In this document: piece by piece, positions 11,972 to 20,147 of the stretch
Numbering within the stretch: position 1 is the first letter of the stretch
How the letters are laid out: each line of letters opens with the position of its first letter
DNA from: Pseudomonas sp. GR 6-02
Lineage (GTDB): Bacteria > Pseudomonadota > Gammaproteobacteria > Pseudomonadales > Pseudomonadaceae
Reading direction: 5' to 3'
Assembly (NCBI RefSeq): GCF_001655615.1
Contig: NZ_CP011567.1
Location: 5,731,001-5,795,000 of the forward strand
DNA length: 64,000 nt
Notes under the pieces: model-generated
The model's input: the letters and a program-made list of their open reading frames with translations, nothing else
Databases searched by the model: none
What the model was told of the DNA's origin: nothing
Translations under genes and position numbers: made by a program

Positions 11972-12967
11972 CTACCGGGCCACAACAGCTGGCGGCGTCA
12001 CGCCAAACCGCGTCCGGTAATCACTCGGCGCCAGCCCGGTAATCTTTTTGAACGTCGCACGAAACGCACTCGGGTCCTGATAACCCACGGTCCAGGCAAT
12101 GTGATCAATGGTGCCGTTGGTGAATTCGAGCATCTCGCGCGCCTTGCCGACGCGCAGGTGCTGGCAGTACTCGGTGGGTTTCAACCCGGTCGCCGCACGG
12201 AATCGCCGCAGGAAGGTGCGCTCTTCCAGCCCCGCCCGTTCGGCCATTGCCGCCAGCGAGACATCGACCGCCCCGGTGCTTTGCAGCCAATGCTGGACCT
12301 TGAGAATCGAGGCATCGCCATGGCTGAGAATCGGTGAAAAATTACTGCCGCATTCGCTCGCGCTGTCGCTGTGCTCCACCACCAGAAAGCGTGCCGTGCT
12401 GGTGGCGATGCTCGGCCCCAGTAAACGGTTCACCAGGCGCAATCCCAGCTCTGACCAGGCCATCAGCCCGGCGGTGGTGATCAGATCGCCGTCGTCGACG
12501 ATGGGCGTGTCGGCCTTGAGCTTGATCGCCGGGTAACGCTCGGCGAAGGCTTTGGCCGAGGTCCAATGAGTGGTGGCGCTACGGCCGTCGAGCAGGCCGC
12601 TTTCAGCCAACAGGATCGACCCCACGCAAACCCCGCCCAACGTCGCACCACTGGCGTGTTGCTGACGAATCCAGCGAATCAGTCCCTGCGGTGCCTGGCC
12701 CTTGGAAAAACCCCCAATCGAAGGCGGGATCAACACCGCCACCAGCGCGCCGTCCGGACCGGGTTGACTGTCGTAGACCCGCTCGGGCGCCTGATCGCCC
12801 TCGACCCGCCAATGGCTGATCCGCAACAACGGCAACTGCGCCGTCTGATGCTCGGCGGCAATCCGGTTGGCCACCCCGAACAGATCCGTCAGCCCATGCA
12901 CCGCCGCCATCTGCGCGCCGGGATAGATCAGCACGCCCAATTCGACGACTGCCCTTTCTACGCCCAT
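11972..12967 (-). CDS. GlxA-type transcriptional regulator (GATase1-like + AraC DNA-binding domain)
   Basis: A 331-residue regulator with an N-terminal class I glutamine-amidotransferase/DJ-1-like domain (residues ~10-190, including GGVCVGSILLAESGLL around the nucleophile elbow) and a C-terminal AraC helix-turn-helix pair (residues ~225-320). The AraC signature AWTVGYQDPSAFRATFKKITG is intact. The start at 12967 is preferred over 13021 because an AAGGGGGA ribosome binding site precedes it and the family begins at this point. It is divergent from the cysteine hydrolase at 13069 and probably controls it. Confidence 0.88.
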   Translation of the reverse strand: MGVERAVVELGVLIYPGAQMAAVHGLTDLFGVANRIAAEHQTAQLPLLRISHWRVEGDQAPERVYDSQPGPDGALVAVLIPPSIGGFSKGQAPQGLIRWIRQQHASGATLGGVCVGSILLAESGLLDGRSATTHWTSAKAFAERYPAIKLKADTPIVDDGDLITTAGLMAWSELGLRLVNRLLGPSIATSTARFLVVEHSDSASECGSNFSPILSHGDASILKVQHWLQSTGAVDVSLAAMAERAGLEERTFLRRFRAATGLKPTEYCQHLRVGKAREMLEFTNGTIDHIAWTVGYQDPSAFRATFKKITGLAPSDYRTRFGVTPPAVVAR

Positions 12968-13068
12968 TGTCAGTTTTCCCCCTTCTATTGTCGGTGCGGC
13001 CAATCCTCGGACGGCCTGCAAAACCTGATACTTGAATCACACCCAACAAGCACTTCGAGGAAACACTC

Positions 13069-13617: not shown

Positions 13618-13709
13618 ATGAGAAGCTCGTTCTACAGGATTGCGCTTAACTGATCGGAATCATGCTGCTTCCCTTCTTTTTCATACACCTGCGCAACCGT
13701 CGAAAAAAT

Positions 13710-13765
13710 CTCACGCGTGAGCTATTGAGGGCTGCAAAAATAGCCTGTAGTGTTATCACGCGTGA
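13710..13765 (+). promoter_or_regulatory. Promoter flanked by two identical palindromes (candidate operators)
   Basis: The 10-base palindrome TCACGCGTGA occurs at 13711-13720 and again at 13756-13765; the first extends to the 12-base CTCACGCGTGAG. Between them is a promoter-like pair, TTGAGG (13725-13730) and TAGTGT (13748-13753), with a 17-base spacer. One palindrome abuts the -35 box and the other covers the expected start point, the arrangement of a repressor that binds two sites across a promoter. It lies 25 bases before the yjfI start and should drive the PspA module. Confidence 0.6.
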
Positions 13766-13789
13766 GTTTTTCACAACGGGATCAGCACC

Positions 13790-14479
13790 ATGAAAAGCAG
13801 CTCTCCATCAGATCCGCCTACCGGGTCTGTTACCGATTCAGCGAGCCGCAAAGGAGAGCGCTCGAAACCCTCCGCGAAAAAACCATCGAGCTTCTACATG
13901 AAGCAGATGCGCGCGGGCCTGGGTGCCGCCGGCTATGTGAAACACGAGACTTGGGTGCTTCCCGAAAATCGAAGCCTGCTCAAGCAGATGGAGAAACAGC
14001 TACGCCAACCGATTCTGGCTGGCTCATTCATGTCGGAGAATTACATGAGCGCAGGTAATAACTGGAACATCGATCGCCTCTACAGCGCCCTCCAGGCCCT
14101 CGACGAAGTGGTTGCGAACGAAATCACCCTCTCCCTCGTTCAAGGCTCCGAATCCAGCATCAAGCTGGAAATGAACGATTTCGGTGGCTTGCCGATTTAC
14201 ATCGCGGTGGTTGGCGATCAGATCATCGTCGATACGGTCCTGGTCGATGTCGAATCGATCAACAACGTCCCGGCATTCAATGATGCCGTTTTGCGCAGCC
14301 GGGAAATGTTCCCGCTGTCCTCGATCGGTATCGAGTCCATGCCCAACGGGCAGGTCGTTTACAACATGTTCGGCGCGCTGAGCTCCGACTCCAGCCTGAC
14401 CAACGTCGTGACTGAGATCAAAACCCTCGTCGACAACGTCCAGCGCGCCAGCGAAGCCTTTGAACGCTTCTTCAATTAA
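13790..14479 (+). CDS. yjfI: YjfI family protein (DUF2170)
   Basis: A 229-residue protein similar to E. coli YjfI, first gene of the yjfI-J-K-L-M-C cluster. It has a basic, Ser/Lys-rich N-terminal extension (residues 1-40) followed by a folded domain of unknown function ending in SEAFERFFN. No signal peptide or membrane helix, so it should be cytoplasmic or peripheral. It is followed after 24 bases by the PspA-like gene. Its product may regulate or bind PspA, but that is inferred only from the conserved adjacency. Confidence 0.75.
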   Translation: MKSSSPSDPPTGSVTDSASRKGERSKPSAKKPSSFYMKQMRAGLGAAGYVKHETWVLPENRSLLKQMEKQLRQPILAGSFMSENYMSAGNNWNIDRLYSALQALDEVVANEITLSLVQGSESSIKLEMNDFGGLPIYIAVVGDQIIVDTVLVDVESINNVPAFNDAVLRSREMFPLSSIGIESMPNGQVVYNMFGALSSDSSLTNVVTEIKTLVDNVQRASEAFERFFN

Positions 14480-14503
14480 TTATTCGGGAACAGGATATAT
14501 CCA

Positions 14504-15202
14504 ATGACTCAGTCCATCTGGAGCAAATTGTTCACCGCGCTGCGTGGCGGTGCCAACGAAGTCGGCGAATCGATCGTCGACCAACAGGCCCTGCGCATTC
14601 TCGACCAGGAAATTCGCGATGCTGACAGCGCGCTGGCCAACGCCAAGCGTGAGCTGGTCACCATCATGGCCAAGCACAAACTGTCGGCTGACCGCGTCAG
14701 CGAGTACAACGCCAAGATCAAGGACCTGGAATCCAAAGCCCTGGCCGCCATCCAGGCCAACCGCGAAGACCTGGCACTGGAAGTGGCCGAAGCCATTTCG
14801 ACCCTGACCAATGAACTGGATGTCGAGCAAAAGCAGGCCACCGAATTCGGTGGTTACGCTGACAACATGCGCAAAGACATCACCAAGGCTGAAAACCGCA
14901 TCAAAAGCCTGCGCCAGCAAGTGGATATGGCCAAGGCTCGTGAAAGCGTACAGAAAGCCCAGGTCAGCGCCTCGATCGCCAGTGGCGGCGCCAACGGCAA
15001 GCTGGAAACCGCCGTCGGTACACTGAACCGCCTGCAAGCCAAGCAGCAGCAACGCGCCGCTGAACTGCAAGCCCAGGACGAACTGGCCGATGCGTCGACC
15101 GGCACCGACCTGGAGCGCAAACTGCGCGAAGCCGGCATCACGCCGGACGAAGGCAGCGCCAATGCGATCCTGGAACGCCTGAAGAAAAAATCGGCCGAGT
15201 AA
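14504..15202 (+). CDS. PspA/IM30 family protein (YjfJ-like)
   Basis: A 232-residue, highly charged alpha-helical protein of the PspA/IM30 (bacterial ESCRT-III) family. Long coiled-coil segments cover about residues 30-200, with the typical opening of an amphipathic helix (MTQSIWSKLFTALRGG) followed by a run ending in QQALRILDQEIRDADSALA. Relatives polymerise on membranes and protect them under stress. It is the YjfJ rather than canonical PspA type, since pspB/C/F are absent and YjfI/YjfK/YjfL homologues flank it. AGGAT precedes the start. Confidence 0.9.
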   Translation: MTQSIWSKLFTALRGGANEVGESIVDQQALRILDQEIRDADSALANAKRELVTIMAKHKLSADRVSEYNAKIKDLESKALAAIQANREDLALEVAEAISTLTNELDVEQKQATEFGGYADNMRKDITKAENRIKSLRQQVDMAKARESVQKAQVSASIASGGANGKLETAVGTLNRLQAKQQQRAAELQAQDELADASTGTDLERKLREAGITPDEGSANAILERLKKKSAE

Positions 15203-15264
15203 GCAATACCCCGGCAGAAAGGGCATTCATTGCCCTGATGCCAGTCAGTCAAGCGCACTGACCC

Positions 15265-15368
15265 TGTGGCGAGGGAGCTTGCTCCCGCTGGACTGCGCAG
15301 CAGTCCCTTCTTTTTGGGGATAAGAGGGGCCGCTTCGCGGCCCAGCGGGAGCAAGCTCCCTCGCCACA
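15265..15368. repeat. REPIN: inverted pair of REP sequences
   Basis: Arms 15265-15289 and 15344-15368 are perfect inverted 25-base copies, identical to those at 4248-4381, but the intervening 54 bases differ and include a G/C hairpin (GGCCGCTTCGCGGCC, 15328-15342). It sits between the PspA-like gene and the rhomboid gene and could fold in the mRNA, separating the expression of the first two module genes from the rest. Confidence 0.9.
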
Positions 15369-15449
15369 ACTTTACTCAGTGCTTGTTCTATCTCTTAACT
15401 GGCAGGCATTAATTGATCGCCCTTCTTTACTGCCGAGTCGAGGTCAAGG

Positions 15450-16013
15450 ATGGATGCCCTGAAGGGTTTCAAGACAATCGCTGGCCTGGCCATCTTCATG
15501 GTTGCGCTGCAACTGCTCAATGTGGCGACCGGCTACAGCCTTAACGCCTTCGGCCTGGTTCCGAGAACCTTGCACGGACTGGTCGGCATCATCACCTCAC
15601 CTTTCTTGCACACATCCTTTGCGCACCTGAGCGCCAACCTGATTGCCTTTTTGATCCTCGGCACCCTGGTCATCGTCGAAGGGCTCAACCGGTTCATGGC
15701 CGTCAGCGCTATCATCATTTTGCTGGGCGGTTCGCTGATCTGGCTGTTCGGTTTTGCCGGCGTGCATATCGGTGCCAGCGGCTGGGTGTTCGGGCTGTGG
15801 GCGTATCTCCTGTCGCGCGCCTGGTTTCAGAGGAGCTGGAGCAACCTGATAACGGCCAGTGTCGTGGCCCTGCTCTATGGTGGGCTGATTGTTGGCTTCC
15901 TTCCGCGCCGGGGCATTTCCTTCGAAGGGCATATTTTTGCTGCAATCGCCGGGTATATTGCAGCCAAGGTACTGTTATCTACGCCGCGCAGCAGGTTTAA
16001 TGCCGCCCGGTAA
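15450..16013 (+). CDS. Rhomboid family intramembrane serine protease
   Basis: A 187-residue protein with six hydrophobic segments. The catalytic dyad of rhomboids is intact: S110 in GASG within membrane helix 4 and H161 in FEGH within helix 6. The structural H54-x4-H59-x3-N63 motif of helix 2 is present too. Rhomboids cleave transmembrane segments of other proteins. The gene lies between the PspA-like and K+ channel genes of the same direction, so a membrane protein of this module is a natural candidate substrate, which is inference. A weak GAGGTCAAGG precedes the start. Confidence 0.85.
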   Translation: MDALKGFKTIAGLAIFMVALQLLNVATGYSLNAFGLVPRTLHGLVGIITSPFLHTSFAHLSANLIAFLILGTLVIVEGLNRFMAVSAIIILLGGSLIWLFGFAGVHIGASGWVFGLWAYLLSRAWFQRSWSNLITASVVALLYGGLIVGFLPRRGISFEGHIFAAIAGYIAAKVLLSTPRSRFNAAR

Positions 16014-16084
16014 CCACACCCGAGCACTTAGATGCCCGAGCGAGTACGTCGCCAGGAATGAGCCCCCAAGGAGTCAGGGATGTA

Positions 16085-17119
16085 ATGTCGATTTTCCTTT
16101 TATTGCGCGCGTACGCGGCGTCCTTCTTCCATCGCTTCGGCTGGGCCGGCCTGGCCATTGCGCTGGGCGTACACCTGAGCACGGCCTGGCTCGGCCTGGT
16201 GCTTCTGGGCGAACAACACCTCATCGCTCCCGCCACGTTCACCTACTTCTATCTCACCACCACGCTCACCGTCGGCTACGGCGATCTTGCGCCACAGACA
16301 GCCGCGGGACGGATTTTCGTGGCTACCTGGGTCATGCTCGGGGGCATTGCGCTGCTGACCGCAGCCATCGGCAAAACAACCAGCAGTGTCATCGATGTAT
16401 GGAGAAAAGGCATGAAGGGCAAAGGCGATTTCACCGGCAAGGTCGGCCATACCGTTCTCATCGGCTGGGAAGGCGCGTCCAGCGAGCGGGTTATTGAGTT
16501 GCTGCTGCAGGACGAAACGTCCAATGACAACCTGATCGTCATTTGCGATTGCGACCTCGAAGAAAACCCCATGCCGGGCAAGGCCGCCTTTATCAAAGGT
16601 GAAAGCCTGTCATCCGCCGCGCTTTTGCTGCGTGCCGGCGTGCCTGGCGCCGAACGCGTACTGGTGCGTACCCATTCAGATGATCTGACCCTGGCCACCG
16701 TGCTGGCGGTCAATCAACTGAGCCCGGTCGGGCATGTGGTCGCCCACTTCAATGAAAGTGAAATCGCCGCGCTCGCCAGCGCCTACGCGCCCAGCCTGGA
16801 ATGCACCTCAAGCATGGCCATCGAGATGTTGGTGCGCGCCTCTCAGGATCCGGGCTCGTCAGTGGTCATCAATGAATTGCTGTGCGTGGGCCAAGGCGCC
16901 ACCCAATACCTGATGAGACTGCCCGAAACCTTTGAAACAACGTTCGGCGATCTATACGCACAGATGAAAGAACGCCATAACGCGACCCTTATCGGCTACC
17001 GCGCCAAAGGCGCCCGACAGCCTTCAATCAACCCGCCCGGCGCCACTCGCGTCAAGGGCGGCGAACTCTTCTACATCGCCTCTACTCGCCTCAAGGAAAT
17101 CTCCAATGGGATGGTTTAA
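16085..17119 (+). CDS. Two-helix potassium channel with RCK/TrkA-N-type cytoplasmic domain
   Basis: A 344-residue ion channel. Two membrane helices flank a pore loop with the K+ selectivity signature TVGYG at residues 62-66. From about residue 115 a Rossmann-like RCK domain follows (VLIGWEGASSERVIELL), which in relatives binds nucleotides or ions to gate the pore. The start at 16085 was preferred over 16058 since AAGGAG (16068-16073) lies upstream and the protein then begins at the first helix. Its last 14 bases overlap the DUF2491 gene. Confidence 0.87.
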   Translation: MSIFLLLRAYAASFFHRFGWAGLAIALGVHLSTAWLGLVLLGEQHLIAPATFTYFYLTTTLTVGYGDLAPQTAAGRIFVATWVMLGGIALLTAAIGKTTSSVIDVWRKGMKGKGDFTGKVGHTVLIGWEGASSERVIELLLQDETSNDNLIVICDCDLEENPMPGKAAFIKGESLSSAALLLRAGVPGAERVLVRTHSDDLTLATVLAVNQLSPVGHVVAHFNESEIAALASAYAPSLECTSSMAIEMLVRASQDPGSSVVINELLCVGQGATQYLMRLPETFETTFGDLYAQMKERHNATLIGYRAKGARQPSINPPGATRVKGGELFYIASTRLKEISNGMV

Positions 17120-17786
17120 ACAGTTGCTGGGGCTTGAGGCCCCGAACGCGGGCACGAATACCGATTCGAAATGGACAGCCAACGATAACCTGCCAGTCAC
17201 CGGCCCGCTGGGCCTGGCAATGGGCAAGGGCGTGATGTTCGACACGACCCTGAAACTGTTACTCGACGAAAAAACCGCGGTAACCATTCCCGGCTCCCAG
17301 CAGATCTGGAGCGCCGGCACCATTGAGCTCGGGCAGTCGACCTGGTTGTCGCGCTATTACATGAACGACGAAGACTACTGGCTGCAAGTGCACACCACCG
17401 GCGACATCGCCGGGCAGGTCGAGTCGGTGATCCTGTTCAACTACCTCAGCTACGTCACCATCAACAGTGAAGCGGAGCTGCGGCGGCTGGCCGGCCCTCA
17501 AAGCCTGATCGGGCTGCCGACCTACACCCTCAACGGTGTCGAATACACCCGCGAATGGGGCACCGAGAACGGCCAGACCGAACTGGTGCCGTTGAGCGAA
17601 CACCTGAAGAATCCGGACGAAACATACAGCATCCAGCACTGTTCGATGTTGTACGCCCGCGAAACCGGCCTGACCGATCGCCGGGAATTCCTGCTGTTTT
17701 CCGTCGAAGAAGACGCCGAATGCACCATCAGCTTGAGCACTTCGCTGGGTATATCGCTGTACACCACCGACCTGAACACTTTTTAA
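17106..17786 (+). CDS. yjfK: DUF2491 family protein (YjfK-like)
   Basis: A 226-residue soluble protein of DUF2491, whose E. coli member is YjfK. It begins MGWFKQLLGLE, a short amphipathic start that could touch the membrane, followed by a mostly beta-strand domain with acidic surfaces (YYMNDEDYWLQVHTTG). No enzymatic motif is recognisable. It overlaps the channel gene by 14 bases and is followed after 14 bases by the DUF350 gene, so it is tightly coupled within the module. Function unknown. Confidence 0.8.
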   Translation: MGWFKQLLGLEAPNAGTNTDSKWTANDNLPVTGPLGLAMGKGVMFDTTLKLLLDEKTAVTIPGSQQIWSAGTIELGQSTWLSRYYMNDEDYWLQVHTTGDIAGQVESVILFNYLSYVTINSEAELRRLAGPQSLIGLPTYTLNGVEYTREWGTENGQTELVPLSEHLKNPDETYSIQHCSMLYARETGLTDRREFLLFSVEEDAECTISLSTSLGISLYTTDLNTF

Positions 17787-17800
17787 AAAGGAAGAAGTCC

Positions 17801-18229
17801 ATGCTTGAAGCGCTCTCTATCTCCCTGAACAAAGCCGCCGTGCTCGGGTTTGTTTTGTACATCCTCGGCGCCGCCGTGTTGTTCGCGCTGTTCCAGTTCA
17901 TCTACACCCGCATCACACCGCACCGGGAATTCGAGTTGATCCGTGCGGGCAACGTTGCGGCCGCCATCGCCCTGGGCGGCGCCATCATCGGATTCGCCAT
18001 TCCGGCCAGCAATGTGATCGCCTACTCGATCAGCATTCTGGACTTCGTCGTCTGGGCGGTGATCGCCGCTTTCGTACAACTGCTGGCGTTCCTGGTGACC
18101 AGCCTGGTGCTCAAAGGCGCCTCTGAACGCATCAAGAACGGCGAAATCGCTGCGGGTATCTATGTCGCGGCAGTGGCCATCAGCGTCGGCATGTTGAACG
18201 CCGCGTGCATGACCCCTTCCCAGAACTGA
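17801..18229 (+). CDS. yjfL: DUF350 family membrane protein (YjfL-like)
   Basis: A 142-residue membrane protein with four hydrophobic helices and little else, fitting DUF350/YjfL. The start at 17801 follows AAGGAAGAAG. The helix pattern includes small-residue runs (LGGAIIGFAIPASNVIAYS). The biochemical role is unknown; the family is repeatedly found with PspA-like proteins and glutathionylspermidine-synthase-like ligases, as here. Confidence 0.83.
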   Translation: MLEALSISLNKAAVLGFVLYILGAAVLFALFQFIYTRITPHREFELIRAGNVAAAIALGGAIIGFAIPASNVIAYSISILDFVVWAVIAAFVQLLAFLVTSLVLKGASERIKNGEIAAGIYVAAVAISVGMLNAACMTPSQN

Positions 18230-18248
18230 TTGCGCCACGGAGATTGCG

Positions 18249-18977
18249 ATGAAACGAAGCAAGTACGTTCAGCTCTCGCTGGCGGCATCGGTCGCCATGG
18301 CGATATCAGGCTGCGGGCCGACGGAAAAAACCTACGAGATACACAAAAAGTACAACTTCCAGTCCGTCCAGCAGTGCGCCGATGAAAAACTCCCGGTCGA
18401 CATCTGTTCTGACGCCTATATGAAGGCCATGGCCCAGCATCGAAGCATTGCGCCGGTGTACGACAACCAGGCTGATTGCGACGCCGACTTTGTTGCCGAC
18501 TGGTGCCAGCAGGATTCCGCCGGCAAATTCATCCCCAAGCTCGGCGGTTTCGAACTGAGTGCCGATGGCGAGGTGACGCAGTCCGAAGTGGACGCGGCCA
18601 AGGCTAAATTGCCCGCATCGGAAGCGAATGCCGCAGGGTCGGGTTTCTCCGGCAGTAGCCTGCTGACAGGGCTGCTGATCGGCAACATGCTCAGCAGCAA
18701 CCGCAACAGCTACTACTCCGAACCGGTCTACCGCTATCGCGATGATCGCGGTGACTACTCGTCCTCGACACTCAGTCAGCGGGTATCGTCAGGTTCAACC
18801 TTCAACAGGTCCAATCAGGCGCGCTACGGCAGCAGTGGCAGTTACACCGACACCATCACTCGCAGCAAGCCGGTGTCCGTTGCATCGTCCACTTCCCGCG
18901 GCGGGTTCGGCAGCCAGGCCAGCGCACGCAGTGGCTGGGGTGGATCAGGCAAGAGCTTTGGCGGTTCGAGTAGCTAA
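18249..18977 (+). CDS. yjfM: DUF1190 lipoprotein (YjfM-like)
   Basis: A 242-residue secreted lipoprotein. A signal peptide ends in the lipobox AISGC (cysteine at residue 22), and the following residue is Gly, not Asp, so outer-membrane sorting is expected. Residues ~25-100 hold the conserved Cys-containing region of DUF1190 (QQCADEKLPVDICSD, ADCDADFVADWCQ), while the last ~110 residues are a low-complexity Ser/Gly/Arg-rich tail ending KSFGGSSS. Function unknown. It lies 19 bases after DUF350 and 12 bases before the yjfC-like gene. Confidence 0.85.
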   Translation: MKRSKYVQLSLAASVAMAISGCGPTEKTYEIHKKYNFQSVQQCADEKLPVDICSDAYMKAMAQHRSIAPVYDNQADCDADFVADWCQQDSAGKFIPKLGGFELSADGEVTQSEVDAAKAKLPASEANAAGSGFSGSSLLTGLLIGNMLSSNRNSYYSEPVYRYRDDRGDYSSSTLSQRVSSGSTFNRSNQARYGSSGSYTDTITRSKPVSVASSTSRGGFGSQASARSGWGGSGKSFGGSSS

Positions 18978-18989
18978 GGGAACAAGGCC

Positions 18990-20147
18990 ATGAAGAAAAT
19001 CCTCTGCGCAGAGCGTCATGACTGGAAACAGACCGCCGAAAGCCTCGGCTTCCTGTTCCATACCATCGACGACGAACCCTATTGGGACGAGAGCGCGTAC
19101 TACCAGTTCACGCTCAAGCAGATCGAGAACGACCTCGAAGACCCGACCACCGAAGTTCATGAGATGTGCATGGACCTGGTGGCGCGAGTGGTGCAAAGCG
19201 AAGAGTTGCTGGAGCGCTTGAGCATCCCCGCGCCGTTCTTCGACATGGTTCGCACTTCATGGCTCGAAGGCCACCCGCACCTGTATGGGCGCATGGACTT
19301 CTCCTACAACGGCAGCGGGCCAGCCAAGCTGCTGGAACTCAACTACGACACGCCGACCAGCCTGTATGAGGCCGCGGCGTTTCAGTGGGGCTGGCTGGAA
19401 CAATGCATCGAGCGTGGCTTGCTGCCCAGGCACGCCGACCAGTTCAACAGCATCGACACCAAGCTGCATCAGGCTTTTGCCCAACTGCAGCTCAAACAGC
19501 CCTTCTATTTCGCCTCGATGAAAGACTCGGTCGAAGACAAGGGCACCACCGATTACCTGCGCCTGGTCGCGGAAAAGGTCGGCATCGAATCGCGGCACAT
19601 CGACATCGAAGACATTGGCCTCACCAGTGACGGACGTTTCGTCGACCTCGAGGATCGCTGGATCCCTCACCTGTTCAAACTGCATGCCTGGGAGTTCATC
19701 TTCCACGAACCCTTCGGCGCTGCAATTGCCCAGAGCGACACGCAGTTTTTCGAACCGCCCTGGAAATCCATCATCTCCAACAAGGGCATCCTGCCGCTGC
19801 TGTGGGAGTTCAACCAAGGTCACCCGAACCTGCTCGCGGCACACCTGGACTTCGATCCGAGCAAAGCGGTGCCCAAAGGTTGGGTGCGCAAGCCGTTCTT
19901 CTCACGGGAAGGCGCAAACATTGAGCTGCAAACCGCTGAGGGTCTGATCGTAAAAGAGGACGGCCCCTACACTGATGCGCCGTTTATCCTTCAGGAGTTT
20001 GCCCCGCTGCCGAAATTTGGCGACAGCTACACGCTGATCGGTTCCTGGGTGATCGGGGATCAGGCAGCCGGCATCGGCGTGCGTGAGGACAACAGCTTGA
20101 TTACCAAGGACTCGAGCCGGTTCTTGCCGCATCTGATACTCGACTGA
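18990..20147 (+). CDS. yjfC: Glutathionylspermidine synthase family protein (YjfC-like ATP-grasp ligase)
   Basis: A 385-residue protein matching the synthetase half of bifunctional GspSA and the stand-alone YjfC/YgiC group. It has the ATP-grasp substrate region RMDFSYNGSGPAKLLELNYD near residue 107, VRKPFFSREGANI near residue 302, and the C-terminal GSWVIGDQAAGIGVRED. Relatives use ATP to join an amine to a glycine carboxylate of glutathione or a peptide. The amidase half is missing, so a glutathionylspermidine product is not assured. It closes the module; a short hairpin (GGTGTC/GACACC, 20174-20197) follows. Confidence 0.87.
   Translation: MKKILCAERHDWKQTAESLGFLFHTIDDEPYWDESAYYQFTLKQIENDLEDPTTEVHEMCMDLVARVVQSEELLERLSIPAPFFDMVRTSWLEGHPHLYGRMDFSYNGSGPAKLLELNYDTPTSLYEAAAFQWGWLEQCIERGLLPRHADQFNSIDTKLHQAFAQLQLKQPFYFASMKDSVEDKGTTDYLRLVAEKVGIESRHIDIEDIGLTSDGRFVDLEDRWIPHLFKLHAWEFIFHEPFGAAIAQSDTQFFEPPWKSIISNKGILPLLWEFNQGHPNLLAAHLDFDPSKAVPKGWVRKPFFSREGANIELQTAEGLIVKEDGPYTDAPFILQEFAPLPKFGDSYTLIGSWVIGDQAAGIGVREDNSLITKDSSRFLPHLILD

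Follow-up and report, generated by a model that had tools for sequence, protein, structure and literature searches.

The DNA analysed here (the window, 64,000 nt of Pseudomonas sp. GR 6-02, NZ_CP011567.1 positions 5,731,001-5,795,000) contains an eight-gene operon, ordered yjfI, yjfJ, rhomboid, channel, yjfK, yjfL, yjfM and yjfC (open reading frames at 13790-20147, all in one direction), which we take, with a probability of about 75%, to be a self-repressing envelope-stress operon of the PspA type, kept off by YjfI, a protein with predicted DNA binding. We read YjfI, with its relative BacA of P. aeruginosa, as the predicted autorepressor of its operon, probably coupled to PspA (YjfJ); it is the anatomy of the operon, together with conservation and covariation, that points to repression here and to binding of DNA. 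An earlier note on this DNA had named the eight genes and their common direction, as the open reading frames and Pfam matches confirmed, and had equated six of them with the E. coli yjfI-J-K-L-M-C set, which indeed has the same order in K-12; neither the operators nor the N-terminal domain of YjfI had been noticed in it.

The regulatory feature starts before yjfI, where two palindromes at 13710-13766 flank an inferred promoter (Table 1), so that yjfI has predicted operators at its own promoter, as an autorepressor should. The pattern TTG[AT]-17-TA[GT] was shared by 67 of the 68 distinct promoters of GC type; a consensus promoter scan did not report the TTGAGG-17-TAGTGT promoter of the window. 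The palindromes form a pair spaced 44-46 bp in 97 of 113 yjfI loci; 14 of the remaining 16 have single or differently spaced sites, and the last two encode a YjfI without the N-terminal domain and have no palindrome. An exact search for the GC 10-mer in ten genomes gave seven close pairs, in six genomes, all of them 5′ of genes for DUF2170 proteins, the family of YjfI. With two mismatches allowed, the palindrome was not enriched in the window (four occurrences against a shuffle mean of 4.24); it is the exact sites, their pairing and their conservation that carry the case. A relaxed 12-mer occurred at four places in this genome, against 13 for the reversed control.

Two wider explanations of these sites were tried and rejected. 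A larger regulon in this genome was not supported, the two further exact 10-mers falling in coding sequence, presumably that of hflK and kdsD. The AraC-type neighbour (11972-13021) was set aside as the regulator because many loci keep the operators without the upstream neighbour, which was tracked by using the isochorismatase gene, rather than the AraC gene itself, as the marker. In some non-Pseudomonas loci of the phylum survey (L287, L289-L293 and L296), yjfI-yjfJ is divergent from channel-yjfK-yjfL-yjfM, and one regulator could therefore act both ways.

From its sequence, YjfI is predicted to consist of a MazE-like putative DNA-binding front end followed by a chaperone-like DUF2170 domain. 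In the N-terminal domain (residues 30-74), R41, G48, V50, K51 and E53 were invariant and W55 was at least 90% conserved among 21 diverse rows of the alignment. Five of 17 such domains matched the Pfam MazE-like family PF11455 (best 5.9e-6) and nine of 17 the UrfF repressor (plasmid-repression) family (best 0.0018), and a profile search reached one PF11455 protein (3.3e-5). The AlphaFold model of YjfI places helices at 33-46 and 58-71 in this domain, and the model of the window domain is helix-extended-helix, with a predicted local distance difference test score of 87.4. The best Foldseek match of the DUF2170 domain was 8q8o (E 4.4e-14), and its fold relatives include ExsC and CesT, which switch regulators through partner exchange.

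DUF2170 was found in 64 of the 119 genomes of the genus survey, 50 of the 398 of the phylum survey and 19 of the 274 of the class survey. Its proteins occur in a long form with the N-terminal domain and a short form without it, assigned by profile search. The comparison covered the loci that the searches gave (36 of 66 rows in the genus survey and 21 of 51 in the phylum survey lacked one, and many of the genus rows concerned were yjf loci already fetched); 79 returned loci and the 113 yjf loci made 192, or 170 after removal of identical upstream sequences. Among these, the palindrome was found upstream of 126 of 131 long-form genes, compared with one of 39 short-form genes, where shuffled upstream sequences gave an expectation of about 2.5 and 0.7, respectively. 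Because relatedness inflates this comparison, families outside the Pseudomonadaceae were counted separately, and the palindrome was found in all five with the domain (one of them, f203, being counted positive with a palindrome in only two of its five loci) compared with none of the 19 without it, of which one shows a weak near-match. No such palindrome was seen by eye in the DNA of the short yjfI of E. coli, and genome G015, which has no DUF2491 match, carries a domain-less bac-type gene without a site. In the long forms L204, L205, L207 and L208 of family f203, other or longer palindromes were seen by eye just 5′ of the start codon, that of L207 being built on TTACGCGTAA.

The residue that follows the invariant lysine also varies with the operators: it was histidine in 94/94 loci that have one or more GC-centred sites and arginine or lysine in 17/17 loci with AT-centred sites. 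Genome G073, by its contig match Pseudomonas sp. MF4836, has two such operons, an H-type yjf operon whose operators are of the GC kind and one of bac type, each with a PspA gene next. In the bac-type operon, a large deletion and a small gap that breaks the frame have destroyed the N-terminal domain, and both operators are GC-centred where those of the relatives L183 and L184 are AT-centred; its DUF2170 gene is also the single short-form gene with a palindrome in the count given above. G073 is the independent case for the match between residue and operator centre. G071 retains the domain in both of its operons, one of K type with AT sites and the other of H type with a GC site and an AC site.

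In the mechanism we propose, YjfI would sit on the two palindromes flanking the promoter and thereby keep the operon off, its DUF2170 domain most likely holding YjfJ; membrane damage would then pull PspA to the membrane, and repression would weaken. That PspA is held by YjfI and drawn off by membrane damage, relieving repression, is the least certain step, to which we would give slightly less than an even chance. As output, PspA would coat the membrane, YjfC would join spermidine to a peptide, and YjfK, YjfL and YjfM would work at the envelope, roles that are drawn from family knowledge; E. coli YjfC is annotated as a peptide-spermidine ligase. We further suggest, tentatively and with the odds again marginally against it, that this is a rewired phage-shock response, in which a repressor made of a MazE-like DNA-binding domain joined to a chaperone fold, with PspA as its sensor or co-repressor, replaces PspF and PspBC, a code of one residue that matches repressor to operator centre insulates paralogous operons, and the surviving repressor of one genome took over a second operon whose own DNA-binding domain had been destroyed.

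The earlier note had placed an intact rhomboid protease and a TVGYG potassium channel in the middle of the operon, and both do lie in the yjfJ-yjfK slot. The rhomboid retains H59, N63, S110 (in GASG) and H161 (window numbering, to which 11 is added for the alignment), columns that reached a conservation of 97% or more across 70 rhomboid rows and that we take to be the catalytic residues. With S110 and H161 in place the enzyme is predicted to be active, and it scored 27.1 bits, under the cut-off of 84, against the rhombosortase model TIGR03902. The TVGYG filter was kept in 71 of 73 channel rows.

That note had let its proposal stand or fall with, among other things, conservation of the two genes next to yjfJ and yjfK in relatives, and on this point the genus survey did not refute it. 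DUF2491 (YjfK) was present in 55 of 119 genomes (54 fetched loci and the window, including the contig-cut L076 and a lone DUF2491 gene, L058), with the rhomboid within the operon in 25 of the 55 and the channel in 18. The class survey found DUF2491 in four of 274 genomes, window included, and the phylum survey in 29 of 398, namely the window, one other Pseudomonas and 27 further genomes, of which 26 were examined, the weak match G668 being excepted. We combined the genus survey with the three other class-survey genomes and 73 named loci from a single-protein scan, the last biased to close relatives; 130 oriented loci were reduced to 118 by identical yjfK (42 genus, three class and 73 named). 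Among the 111 loci with yjfJ and yjfK in line, 26 have an empty slot, 17 have just the rhomboid there, 16 just the channel and 51 both; in one more (L123) the two genes are present in reverse order. A tree was made from 108 core rows, four listed rows with split genes being left out; 49 of the 108 had both genes, 17 the rhomboid only, 17 the channel only and 25 neither; each gene had changed state at least 10 times, and no link between their losses was detectable, independent pairs being few. The protein distances of both genes track those of the core (Mantel 0.876 over 66 rows and 0.792 over 64 rows, with five listed rows left out; none of 200 permutations reached these values). In 14 slots the missing gene has left a short relic (10 rhomboid, four channel), some of just 12-20 residues, which favours loss by deletion. 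Outside Pseudomonas, the channel adjoins yjfK in 18 of 26 genomes; the rhomboid occurs in five of 26, always directly after yjfC and always in family f141 (five of its seven genomes).

The association of rhomboid and channel with the operon is real, in two arrangements, and the two genes look like old, inherited but dispensable add-ons, the core managing without either because each was lost repeatedly. The co-inheritance, the conserved active site and filter and the recurrence of both genes outside Pseudomonas can also be read as signs of an obligate membrane-damage module of PspA, rhomboid and channel, in which the channel would report the potential and some membrane substrate would be cleaved by the rhomboid, but this is unlikely given the repeated changes of state, with losses that show no detectable link among the few independent pairs, and the relics. 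YjfM was rejected as the rhomboid substrate, as a first look found no YjfM feature that clearly differed by rhomboid presence. What stands of the membrane-damage module suggested in the earlier note is the stress role, which is consistent with what has been published on the related bac and yjfIJKL, in the portions of those papers that were consulted; its rhomboid and channel look dispensable.

Several points weigh against self-repression through YjfI as set out above. The window N-terminal domain alone gave zero Pfam matches and its model matched no solved fold in the PDB, by structure or by profile, so that a ribbon-helix-helix is an unproven idea. Five domain-bearing loci (L183, L186 and L204-L206) have no site that reaches the threshold, and three of the five are f203 forms that resemble those of alphaproteobacteria; four H loci hold a second site with another centre (two AT, two AC), and three R loci also carry a TT-centred near-palindrome. 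Most of the match between residue and operator comes down to a single protein change among related genomes, and PspA as the sensor is suggested by adjacency, analogy of fold and a published prediction. In addition, a sigma-54 promoter was proposed for bac in the sections consulted of PMC10948618 and PMC2587700.

The palindromes might instead be bound by a regulator from a different locus, with YjfI being just a PspA chaperone whose N-terminal domain has some other role. Binding of the operators by YjfI is, after all, a prediction for a domain without a solved-fold match, and operons with short-form YjfI, such as that of E. coli, must have other control. We nevertheless regard such a regulator as improbable, because the palindrome tracks the domain, not the operon, in the comparisons of both loci and families, and because the operators remain as the upstream neighbour varies.

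The self-repressing operon proposed here bears directly on BacA. PA3732 was published as a 16-kDa protein (PMC2587700, in the part consulted), and the chain in the crystal is 146 residues long, with 138 in the model; both forms are without the N-terminal domain. A locus identical at 136 of 137 positions to the crystallised part has a 209-codon frame; translated from the first ATG, it gives 206 residues and starts with the domain, and upstream of this near-identical locus lie CTTACATGTGAG and CTTACATGTAAT, 22 bp apart and with AT centres. A 206-residue protein named P. aeruginosa, with 268 member sequences, also carries the domain. This suggests that the annotated start of BacA omits a regulatory domain. 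Residue numbers in PMC10948618 exceed those of the crystal chain by 33, an offset we would attribute to a tag rather than to a native domain, and the terms 'ribbon', 'palindrom' and 'DNA-binding' are absent from the consulted text of that paper. The same source (Wallart 2024, section 3.4) reports that the other five Bac proteins rose 6.1- to 13.5-fold in a bacA insertion mutant, and a published AlphaFold2 screen, seen in part, gave BacA-BacB a probability of 0.981. The window YjfI is a BacA relative but is not filed as BacA, because it scored 211.9 bits against the equivalog NF050185, under the cut-off of 300; the bac-type relatives L183, L184 and L234 scored 343.5, 344.4 and 296.4 bits.

By eye, the P. 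aeruginosa-like bac locus reads TTGAAG-17-TAGTGT, and the BacA-type bac operons L254 and L253 show a promoter-like TTG-17-TAG pair, at odds with the published sigma-54. Type III secretion system (T3SS) chaperones stabilise their partners, which, with a published bacA effect on protein abundance and the sigma-54 site proposed for bac, can be counted in favour of BacA/YjfI as a post-transcriptional chaperone that controls partner stability in an operon driven by a sigma-54 promoter, but loss of bacA raises, not lowers, all five downstream proteins and the conserved TTG-17-TA[GT] resembles sigma-70, making this very improbable.

The features of the operon are given in Table 1. The intergenic gaps are 24 bp between yjfI and yjfJ, 247 bp between yjfJ and the rhomboid, 71 bp between rhomboid and channel and 12-19 bp between the genes 3′ of yjfK; the channel and yjfK genes overlap by 14 bp. 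A single, even transcript is not assured, because the 247-bp gap holds a long hairpin with 44-nt arms and, inside it, a terminator-like stem (15290-15306). The hairpin, which we take to resemble the repeated extragenic elements of Pseudomonas, could reduce transcription of the genes downstream of yjfJ. In the channel, TrkA_N (Pfam) matched only under its cut-off, and an in-frame ATG upstream, at 16058, would give it 353 aa. One PspA-family gene, yjfJ, was found in this genome.

Table 1. Predicted regulatory elements, genes and domains of the operon, in window positions.
Feature	Position	Strand	Remarks
Operator 1 (predicted)	13710..13721	.	Perfect palindrome CTCACGCGTGAG
Inferred -35 element TTGAGG	13725..13730	+	TTG in 68/68 distinct aligned GC-type promoters
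Inferred -10 element TAGTGT	13748..13753	+	17 nt past -35; weak match to usual consensus
Operator 2 (predicted)	13755..13766	.	ATCACGCGTGAG
yjfI	13790..14479	+	229 aa; DUF2170 3.2e-44 (Pfam); predicted autorepressor
MazE-like N-terminal domain of YjfI, residues 30-74	13877..14011	+	Candidate specificity residue H52
DUF2170 (CesT/Tir-like) domain of YjfI, residues 91-228	14060..14473	+	Pfam; Foldseek
yjfJ	14504..15202	+	PspA/IM30 family, 232 aa; PspA_IM30 2.5e-43 (Pfam)
Long hairpin, yjfJ-rhomboid gap	15265..15368	.	44-nt arms, 89% complementary
Rhomboid protease	15450..16013	+	187 aa; Rhomboid 9.2e-21 (Pfam)
Potassium channel, TVGYG filter	16085..17119	+	344 aa; Ion_trans_2 3.9e-11 (Pfam)
yjfK	17106..17786	+	226 aa; DUF2491 3.7e-42 (Pfam)
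yjfL	17801..18229	+	DUF350 membrane protein, 142 aa; 7.8e-36 (Pfam)
yjfM	18249..18977	+	DUF1190 lipoprotein, 242 aa; 3.5e-27 (Pfam)
yjfC	18990..20147	+	ATP-grasp ligase, 385 aa; GSP_synth 1.1e-140 (Pfam)

YjfM and other DUF1190 proteins have a common glycine-rich tail at the C-terminus, SRGGFG...ARSGWGG, and 111 of 116 rows showed a tail of the SRGGFG type. Read by eye, the DNA of E. coli YjfM gives a similar tail ending in GG. The tail might be a target or docking site of the spermidine ligase YjfC, a lead only, because the last residues vary. In locus L075, yjfL-yjfM-yjfC is tandemly duplicated, the first yjfC copy being partial by score. The operon is followed in the window by an OsmC-YcaO fusion (TIGR03549, 20268-22466), adjacent in only part of the relatives.

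The analysis names a candidate DNA-binding part, operators, a promoter and a specificity residue for PspA operons that lack PspF, BacA having hitherto been a 'possible regulator' without a DNA-binding part, and it extends PspA operons, in two bacterial families, by an accessory gene that is inherited with them, the rhomboid. In the open-access literature, subscription papers being mostly outside the search, we found no description of the YjfI N-terminal domain, the operators or the rhomboid link; no paper was found that links UrfF with ribbon-helix-helix, and those found for MazE-like were mostly unrelated. The literature consulted also included PMC12492005, PMC13092808, PMC9239133 and PMC12270671.

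By its Pfam content the window operon fits the 'third group' described by Ravi 2024 (PMC11237479), an operon of DUF2170-PspA, K+ channel, DUF350, DUF1190, DUF2491 and ATP-grasp ligase. The earlier note had thought the combined function undescribed; the operon without a rhomboid is published, but the rhomboid goes unmentioned in the consulted text of that paper (0 occurrences), as do palindromes and MazE, and YjfI is given a CesT/Tir domain there, without a DNA-binding domain. The bac operon (BacA-BacF, described in the sections consulted of PMC10948618) resembles that of the window in having DUF2170 first and PspA second, and BacA lowers the products of its own operon and shares, in the near-identical locus, the N-terminal domain and the pairing of the predicted operators. 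It differs in its other partner genes and in the spacing and centres of its operators, and it was published as a sigma-54 operon without a DNA-binding domain, unlike our reading of the window. E. coli yjfIJKLMC shares the six core genes, but its YjfI is the short form (a 402-bp gene) and no rhomboid or channel lies in between.

In the classical PspF-PspABC system, PspA represses PspF (PMC3128695, in the part consulted), so that PspA is, as in the model proposed for the window, both an effector and part of the transcription switch. In place of the sigma-54 activator PspF, however, the window has a predicted repressor fusion, and PspF, PspB and PspC were absent among the eight genes of the operon, the genome-wide search having covered PspA only. 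Finally, T3SS chaperones of the ExsC/CesT type and YbjN have the same fold as the DUF2170 domain (Foldseek) but, unlike them, the DUF2170 protein has an N-terminal domain of its own, and its partner would be PspA.

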